From a virus: DNA of 25,584 bases. Each line of letters begins with the position of its first letter. The stretch's first letter is position 1. The notes beneath the pieces were generated by a model, which had not been told where the DNA came from, did no database searches, and worked only from the letters and a program-made list of their open reading frames with translations. The translations under genes and the position numbers were made by a program. Positions 6,806-25,584 of this stretch are shown piece by piece. The DNA is taken from positions 1-25,584 of IMG/VR virus record IMGVR_UViG_3300006789_000136. One strand, 5' to 3'.

Positions 6806-7230
6806 TGTCAATTAGAACTCTTATACTACAACAACTGGCTAACACACTAGCAAATGGTGGTGTTGTTTCAAGTGATTATTCATTAGAAGCAAACGAACTA
6901 CCATGGAATGCTAGTGGACAGCCATTGTATGTTAAAAACATGCGTGTGGTATATGTTAGCGAGGAAGAAGAAGCAAAAGTTCAACTTTATCGCACACTGG
7001 ATCAAGGCGATGTCTATCAGACAGAAACCTTAGTCCAAGCCTTCTTAAGCGAAGATGCTAAAAATATTAATGCAAATAACCCAACCGTTATAGAAAACAT
7101 GCTCAATGCCAAGGACATAGTTAACACAGCAAATGGATTTAATGTCCAAGTTGCTGACAGTGGCTATGAACAAGAAATTGAAGGTGATACTATAACATAT
7201 ACTTTCGAGTATACATTTACAACCATATAG
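6805..7230 (+). CDS. Probable tail terminator / tail completion protein
   Basis: A 141-aa soluble protein located between the adaptor and the major tail protein, the usual slot of the lambda gpU-like tail terminator that caps the tube and joins it to the head. The C-terminal strand pattern (DTITYTFEYTFTTI) fits the beta sandwich of that family, and the central EEEEAKVQLYRTLDQGDVYQTET forms alternating strands. There is no direct motif, so the call rests on position and size. It is translationally coupled to the preceding gene by a TAATG overlap. Confidence 0.6.
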   Translation: MSIRTLILQQLANTLANGGVVSSDYSLEANELPWNASGQPLYVKNMRVVYVSEEEEAKVQLYRTLDQGDVYQTETLVQAFLSEDAKNINANNPTVIENMLNAKDIVNTANGFNVQVADSGYEQEIEGDTITYTFEYTFTTI

Positions 7231-24714: not shown

Positions 24715-24723
24715 TTAAAGGGG

Positions 24724-24861
24724 GAGTTGGCTGTGTAATAACTTCGAAGGCCACTTGTCTGTTATTATGAGCTCTATTTTAGCATGGCAACGCATTATAG
24801 AATTTTATGGATTGTTTGATTGAATCATTAGTCCGGAACTTTCAACTCCACAGTCCAACTC
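24724..24861 (+). ncRNA. Putative structured RNA between last late gene and early promoter
   Basis: No gene fits between 24715 and 24979. GAGTTGGCTGTG (24724-24735) pairs with CACAG-T-CCAACTC (24849-24861): 12 pairs with one bulged T. Inside, TAATAAC (24736-24742) pairs exactly with GTTATTA (24761-24767), and GGATT (24809-24813) pairs with AGTCC (24830-24834; one G-U), enclosing TGAT/ATCA. All helices are mutually compatible and the outer two stack. An alternative GGAGTTG/CAACTCC pairing (24723-24729 / 24843-24849) competes with the outer helix. The role is unknown: an independent RNA, a 3' UTR structure, or a terminator-like end of the late operon. Confidence 0.5.
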
Positions 24862-24890
24862 AATATTTATTTATCTAAATAACATATTTC

Positions 24891-24919
24891 TTGACATTAG
24901 AATGGGTGTATAGTATAAT
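24891..24919 (+). promoter_or_regulatory. Perfect sigma70 consensus promoter
   Basis: TTGACA (24891-24896) and TATAAT (24914-24919) are separated by exactly 17 bases, the full bacterial housekeeping consensus. It reads into the 65-aa gene and the structured region behind it. An early phage promoter used by unmodified host RNA polymerase is the natural reading. Confidence 0.85.
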
Positions 24920-24952: not shown

Positions 24953-24960
24953 TATAAATA
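24953..24960 (+). promoter_or_regulatory. T4-late-type promoter box TATAAATA
   Basis: An exact TATAAATA, the -10 box of T4-type late promoters, lies 19 bases before the ATG at 24980 and 34 bases after the sigma70 -10. In T4 this box is read by the phage sigma gp55. It may give late transcription of the same gene, but no gp55 homologue is in the window. Confidence 0.5.
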
Positions 24961-24979: not shown

Positions 24980-25177
24980 ATGGCAACTATCACAAGGCAA
25001 GAAATACTCAAGGCAAAGCATACTAAGGCTCAATTGCAAAAATGGGGCATACCATGGCCACCACCTAAAGGTTGGCGCAAAGAGTTATTAGAACTAGCAC
25101 TAGAACAAGAAACACAGAACCCTTTACAAACAGAACATAAGGCTGATCACCGGAAAGAATTTTTTGATTGGGGATAA
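24980..25177 (+). CDS. Small conserved-type protein with GIPWPPPKGW motif (65 aa)
   Basis: A 65-aa protein with AAGG upstream. The pattern RQEILKAKHTKAQLQKWGIPWPPPKGWRKELLELAL (about 6-41) is one I recognise from small marine phage proteins of unknown function. The first half is a basic helix ending at a Trp/Pro-rich turn, then a second helix. The end, HRKEFFDWG, lies next to a six-T run. A one-base change there would extend the protein by ~24 residues (GDKGGDFGTRTRKIEL onwards), so the 3' end is not beyond doubt. It is the first gene after the strong promoter. Confidence 0.68.
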   Translation: MATITRQEILKAKHTKAQLQKWGIPWPPPKGWRKELLELALEQETQNPLQTEHKADHRKEFFDWG

Positions 25178-25213
25178 AGGCGGCGATTTTGGTACCCGCA
25201 CCCGTAAAATAGA

Positions 25214-25584
25214 ACTACAAGCACACTCCTGCTCAATGTAGTAATATAGACTTTATTCTGTTAGGTCGCAAACACCATATGTGCATAAAAAGATATGCAA
25301 GTGAGGAACGAGGCATATCCTAGAGTCGTCGCAGGTTGGGAAAGGTCAGAGCCCATTGCACGGTGTATAAACAAAATACCTGTTTCCAAATGTCTATGGC
25401 TGTATAGTATACACTCACAGAAAGAGGATGGAACCGTAATAGGTTCCGTCTGACTGAAGTTCCATCTACAGAAAGTAATAATAATTCTTTTTTAAATACT
25501 TAACTTCAAAGGTTCGAGCGAACGAAAGTGAGTGTAGAACATGCAGAGGTTATCGCCTTTAGGTGATGTATGTAACCACATAAA
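25214..25584 (+). ncRNA. Putative large structured non-coding RNA, truncated at window end
   Basis: No plausible gene exists here. Helices found by eye include: ACTACA-AGCA / TGCT-TGTAGT (25214-25242, 10 pairs, 3-base bulge); ACACC plus GTGC (25272-25284) with GCAC-GGTGT (25358-25366), enclosing GATATGC/GCATATC (25292-25298 / 25313-25319) and TGGG/CCCA; AAACA/TGTTT (25369-25385); TACACTCAC (25410-25418) with GTGAGTGTA (25528-25536), enclosing GATGGAACC/GGTTCCGTC (25427-25450), GAAGTT/AACTTC (25456-25507) and GTTC/GAAC (25512-25523); and GGTT-ATCGCC / GGTGAT...AACC (25548-25577). All of these can form together. It does not match tRNA, tmRNA, RNase P or group I/II cores that I know. A GOLLD/ROOL-type phage RNA is possible but unproven. 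Confidence 0.6.

Follow-up and report, generated by a model that had tools for sequence, protein, structure and literature searches.

Comparison with related sequences indicates that the end of the window, the 25,584-base IMG/VR record (G000) analysed here, carries part of a large, folded RNA that is non-coding and about 460 to 560 letters long. The evidence supports a two-domain, pseudoknotted RNA that starts near position 25118 and reaches at least 25573. A family profile built for nhmmer matched the window over 25108–25573 (profile positions 22–527, E = 1.9e-70), and the column map placed the RNA at 25118–25573 on the plus strand, with an approximate 5′ end. The dense structured RNA that a preliminary description had located at 25214–25584 is real, but its limits differ, with a start near 25118 rather than 25214. 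The same description had called the region free of genes. This holds for most of the stretch, but the RNA start lies inside a 65-aa ORF (24980–25177, plus strand, from alignment coordinates), the 3′ third of which overlaps the 5′ end of the RNA and which has no family match. A 52-aa ORF at 25295–25453 is not conserved among homologues. No open frame persists across the homologues, and just 2 RNAs have a frame without stops along the RNA body.

Overlapping contigs were reached through the proteins adjoining the RNA region. Two of them, L002 and L003, bridge the end and the start of the window with another 1,085 bases, giving a circularly permuted small-phage genome of ~26.67 kb (window 1–25584 plus L002 6897–7981). 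As anticipated from the window alone, the RNA runs beyond the edge, and its continuation is seen in L002. The perfect consensus sigma-70 promoter described upstream was recovered by pattern scan at 24891–24919 on the plus strand (TTGACA at 24891–24896, a 17-nt spacer, and TATAAT at 24914–24919). It serves the slot between a second structured stretch, element A, and TerS; L006 and L007 have a similar promoter at the same place, though there the slot is filled by other genes. The pattern scan also identified a T4-type late-promoter box, TATAAATA, at 24953–24960 on the plus strand upstream of the RNA, the sole copy in the window. Five small phages (L023, L028, L005, L150, and L147) likewise have [TC]ATAAATA 43–58 nt before the RNA.

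Element A itself follows the last late ORF (window 24715–24870) and has relatives at L005 10455–10600, L006 10475–10600, and L007 745–885. Its GGCCACU and AUGGC motifs are conserved, while the closing stem differs per phage yet still pairs (GAGTTGG.., GAGCATG.., and GAGTTCGG..). Element A is not in Rfam.

Related gene-free stretches were noticed in two loci, L005 and L017, and more loci came from three DNA-pattern scans. Using a nucleotide profile, we detected the RNA in at least 132 loci, at least 102 of which are non-redundant (collapsed at 96%); the family is larger. Each record carries a single copy. Covariation across the 102 non-redundant relatives was strong, and the strongest covarying column pairs in their alignment mostly fall into helices. 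Columns 185–317/374 were rejected as a helix; adjacent positions do not pair, and the signal was judged to be lineage noise. In a recount on separate alignments, with the same sequences used both to select and to count the helices and with a shuffle control that removes relatedness only partly, the core (86 sequences, MAFFT) was 97.3% paired with 126 both-side-changed cells compared with 19.4 after shuffling (0/500), and the 5′ domain (66 sequences, MAFFT) was 95.3% paired with 268 such cells compared with 76 (0/500). When the partner was slid by one column, pairing fell to 25–46% and the signal was lost in both the core and the 5′ domain. P1, P2, P3, and the long-range helix are re-formed in the window with bases that differ from the consensus. 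The region also folds beyond shuffles, with z = −2.48 for 25214–25584 (1/100 shuffles as good) and z = −3.75 for 25178–25584 (0/100). Strong covariation, no conserved protein-coding frame, and folding better than shuffles all agree with the earlier suggestion of a large, possibly new phage RNA, and the covariation-supported multi-helix fold is that of a large structured phage RNA.

In the predicted fold, all elements of which lie on the plus strand, the 5′ strand of P1 (CAGA, 25131–25134) pairs with TCTG at 25257–25260 in the loop of hairpin P5 (25249–25267), forming pseudoknot 1. Three of the four P1 pairs are altered on both sides, and the helix is 99.6% paired. Covariation also points to P5, to hairpin P2 (25145–25149 with 25165–25169), and to the GGG/CCC stem of P3 (25170–25172 with 25195–25197). 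The P4 stem region (25203–25247) covaries strongly in relatives, and the alignment of the window copy is uncertain there. The first of two long-range helices proposed previously (25272–25284 with 25358–25366) covaries and is retained, with pairing of 25273–25285 with 25357–25368; in the window it consists of GTGCA/TGCAC plus CACC/GGTG. It corresponds to columns 167–178/261–272 of the 102-sequence alignment, with covariation scores of 31–48 at columns 174–178/261–265.

Further along, the hairpin GATATGC/GCATATC (25291–25317) carries the conserved loop motif GGAACGA (25305–25311) on a recurring stem (at least 5 bp in 77/96 RNAs, with 36 distinct stems; shuffled mean, 19), and the near-identical L002 shows a compensatory change in it (GATATGT/ACATATC). 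Helix b joins GCAGGT at 25331–25336 to ACCTGT at 25378–25383 (98.8% paired), and helix c, supported by covariation, joins TGGG at 25337–25340 to CCCA at 25352–25355. The strand immediately before helix b (25326–25330) is predicted to pair with the loop of helix c (25345–25350), forming pseudoknot 2. All five of its pairs are altered on both sides, and it is 97.4% paired; the window has one T-T mismatch, which is paired in L002. A single-sequence fold misses both covariation-supported pseudoknots.

The 3′ part of the RNA contains two copies of a short element, ACAGAAAG, at 25417–25424 and 25468–25475 on the plus strand. They share the 7-mer ACAGAAA (25417–25423 and 25468–25474), and flank a covarying GGAACC/GGTTCC hairpin, GATGGAACC/GGTTCCGTC (25427–25450), which is followed by a conserved TGACTGA. 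Downstream lies a 3′ hairpin, GGTTC...GAAC (25508–25541), with the loop GAGCGA...GTGAG. As in the GGAACGA hairpin, the loop of the GAGCGA..AGCGA hairpin is kept while stems vary. The second long-range helix proposed previously (25410–25418 with 25528–25536) would pair the first repeat with the loop of this hairpin. We dropped it as not conserved, because it is impossible in homologues whose repeats read ACATGAAG or ACATCAAG and because the 3′ element makes its own hairpin in 74/79 relatives with the motif (stem of at least 4 bp, 26 distinct stems).

A reading of the sequence downstream of SegE revealed a diverged RNA with the same layout. A SegE protein search yielded 80 loci, of which the window-branch profile matched 5, while a sister-branch profile found the RNA in 73. 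Where at least 400 nt were available after SegE, both profiles together place the RNA there in 70/71 loci, L237 being the exception. A profile of the sister branch alone matches 99 window-branch loci over the 3′ domain, with E-values to 4.5e-20, but not the window, which is matched only by a profile that also includes its own branch (E = 4.8e-6). These matches indicate that the 3′ domain of the sister branch is homologous to that of the window's branch.

The 5′ domain of the sister branch is the Polynucleobacter-1 RNA (RF01718), recognised in 9/16 scanned loci with up to 120 bits (gathering score, 37 bits). Polynucleobacter-1 was listed in 2010 from Burkholderiales and from fresh water or estuary (PMC2864571). 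RF01718 did not match the window, either at the gathering score or in the list to E = 10. Across Rfam, nothing matched the window at gathering scores and matches to E = 10 were all at chance level, among them a weak C/D-box-like match (E = 8.8). Closer relatives of the window RNA had no Rfam match, and Rfam has no entry for the shared 3′ domain. The earlier remark that no motif could be matched to a named class stands for the window and its closer relatives but not for the 5′ domain of the sister branch. Other members of the family carry different 5′ regions, so the 5′ domain looks exchangeable. The 2010 Polynucleobacter-1 RNA would then be one interchangeable head of a far larger phage RNA that occurs in at least about 200 viral contigs; the Rfam model spans just 141 nt, and the twin elements and pseudoknotted 3′ domain are not described there. 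The family is widespread, aquatic, and mostly undescribed, though not wholly unknown given RF01718.

When RNAs of both branches were compared with INPHARED phages and plasmids by blastn, nothing real was found, and no named phage provided a homologue; a 39-nt match in LR756500 is not a homologue. An exact 24-mer was absent from GTDB genome contigs. The core pattern occurred in two GTDB contigs (L158 and L159), both from a single Red Sea MAG, in which T4-like phage genes surround the RNA. The MAG is labelled Candidatus Neomarinimicrobiota (RS350), and the contigs are probably misbinned T4-like phage DNA.

The twin 7-mers change in concert. They are identical to each other in 99/99 scorable window-branch RNAs, which represent 14 types: ACATGAA in most T4-like carriers, ACAGAAA in the window, and twelve others. 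In the sister branch, the twins are identical in 64/68 RNAs. By covariation, no column inside the RNA acts as their base-pairing partner. Carrier DNA shows no enrichment of their complements (46 found compared with 48.3 expected), and TTTCTGT is absent from the plus strand of the window. With no pairing partner in the RNA and no excess of complements in the carriers, a protein or a host molecule is left as the partner, and the simplest reading of the pattern is that a single outside partner would bind both copies. We considered a CsrA sponge and rejected it; GGA falls within the twin in just one type of the window's branch.

The function we favour, with about an even chance of being correct, is that of a large phage RNA that acts in trans and would dock on one partner through both elements. 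The phage would transcribe the RNA as a product of its own, using the sigma-70 promoter early, the TATAAATA box late, or both. Once folded, the RNA would expose both 7-nt elements to one partner, which would bind the two copies and is most likely a protein or, failing that, a host RNA. In this way the RNA could act as a scaffold or decoy with two sites and redirect the partner during infection. However, the concert of the twins could also stem from gene conversion between short repeats, or the twins could be binding sites at the DNA level. If the trans-acting reading is right, the paired elements offer a direct handle on their common partner, and naturally occurring variants allow the matching partners to be predicted.

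The distribution of the RNA also bears on this reading. Its carriers include giant T4-like phages and small tailed phages, with some records of up to about 350 kb. Among the 102 window-branch carriers, 71 have T4-like neighbours (the late sigma factor gp55, gp47, gp46, and SegE), and 16 are small phages with the TerS/TerL of the window. The T4-like carriers are mostly uncultured, and in them the RNA follows the SegE GIY-YIG gene (PF19835). In a shallow tree of the core, built on 150 columns, the small-phage label switches at least five times compared with 14 times when shuffled. This pattern suggests that the RNA probably moved repeatedly between T4-like and small phages. The presence of the RNA in two kinds of phage, at least five exchanges, and differing neighbour genes fit a trans-acting product rather than the leader of one gene.

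We nevertheless weighed whether the RNA is a cis-acting leader, controlling downstream genes as a very long 5′ untranslated region, in the manner of a riboswitch or by antitermination. The position of the RNA in small phages, between the promoter and TerS/TerL and upstream of the TerS operon, would suit such a leader. In the motif listing that includes Polynucleobacter-1, a second 'y' presumably means likely cis-regulatory. Weinberg 2010 gives this related motif a second 'y' (PMC2864571), which we counted in favour of a leader. However, the downstream genes are not of one kind and do not all share one orientation. The downstream neighbour in T4-like carriers is a baseplate gene that runs opposite to the RNA (cluster 4, 49/49 on the minus strand), and L005 has an inverted ORF as its next one. 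TerS moreover has its own conserved late box (GATAAATA or TATAAATA) 58–68 nt upstream, as seen in L005, L007, L010, L011, L017, and L018. We therefore consider a leader rather unlikely and retain the trans-acting RNA as the preferred reading.

The late boxes, together with the gene content of the small phages, raise the question of a helper. A TATAAATA-type box precedes TerS in 11/11 small phages (at 7222–7230 in L002). In T4-like carriers, the box occurs before late genes (34/46 baseplate genes and 18/37 genes of cluster 6) and before 0/242 early genes. The small-phage records, which span 7–29 kb with several of 21–29 kb, carry virion genes, and had no match to DNA_pol_A, DnaB_C, DNA_pol_B, D5_N, phage integrase, or Helicase_C. 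Nor did they match the late sigma factor, which was detected in two T4-like control records. The lack of recognisable genes for replication, integration, or a sigma factor, which extends to the ~26.67-kb genome of the window phage, combined with T4-type late boxes, suggests dependence on a T4-like helper. The small phage may depend on such a helper, although the absence of a family in uncultured phages weighs little. The recurrence of the RNA in these phages points to a possible helper-satellite relation. More specifically, and only as a tentative possibility, the window phage could be a small tailed satellite of T4-like phages, whose late boxes, driving the packaging operon and the RNA, would be read only by gp55 of the helper and whose RNA, repeatedly exchanged, would be a shared tool for capturing the same machinery in a co-infected cell.

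The same missing replication families could instead favour a transcript-primed replication origin of the ColE1 RNA II or T4 R-loop type, in which the RNA would prime synthesis at a nearby AT-rich stretch. Like those origins, the RNA would be a long structured transcript behind a sigma-70 promoter, which could suit a phage without replication genes. It adjoins the gp46/gp47 recombination genes in T4-like phages, and AT content climbs to 0.77 right after the second twin. However, the AT rise is small, and the GC skew of the window has no sign change. Neither the RNA nor the replication families occur in the relatives L018 and L006, which means that the RNA is not required as a replacement. The trans-acting pattern and the sharing between unlike phages also differ from the known origins, and we regard this explanation as improbable.

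We assign a similarly low probability to a homo-oligomeric RNA particle, a cage or scaffold made mainly of RNA. GOLLD, ROOL, and OLE form homo-oligomers (PMC12286853), which we counted toward this possibility, and the RNA resembles them in size, pseudoknots, conserved loops, and phage setting. All are large and gene-free with an elaborate fold, and GOLLD is phage-linked. In contrast, the conserved sequences are others, the window RNA has concerted twin 7-nt elements, and no GOLLD, ROOL, or OLE covariance model in Rfam scored above its gathering threshold. The twins are complementary neither to each other nor to another part of the RNA. Compared with tmRNA, of which marine phages such as Melnitz have a two-piece form (PMC9004378), the RNA is likewise pseudoknotted and phage-encoded, with a similar length. 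However, ARAGORN and Rfam detected no tmRNA in the window or its relatives, and the window contains no tRNA.

Least probable of all is a ribozyme or mobile-element RNA tied to the SegE GIY-YIG endonuclease: the RNA follows SegE_GIY-YIG (PF19835) in nearly every locus with room (70/71) and often starts close to the end of the SegE gene, but small phages have the RNA without SegE, only a short gap follows SegE in Melnitz, S-SRM01, and B23, and the RNA lies between genes with no match to a group I or group II intron in Rfam.

Some observations concern the genes around the RNA. Annotations of the SegE GIY-YIG protein (Pfam PF19835) widely read NAD synthetase, as in PHROG phrog_447 and many cyanophage records, which is apparently a naming error. 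A DNA polymerase replacing the RNA in L006 was considered and rejected; the 479-aa protein there matches no family. An ORF of ~95 aa lies beside the RNA and TerS in either orientation (L002 6932–7231, plus strand; L005 11187–11468 and L011 1471–1752, minus strand). Finally, the window encodes a SET-domain protein (PF00856) at 1729–2019, in a small tailed phage.
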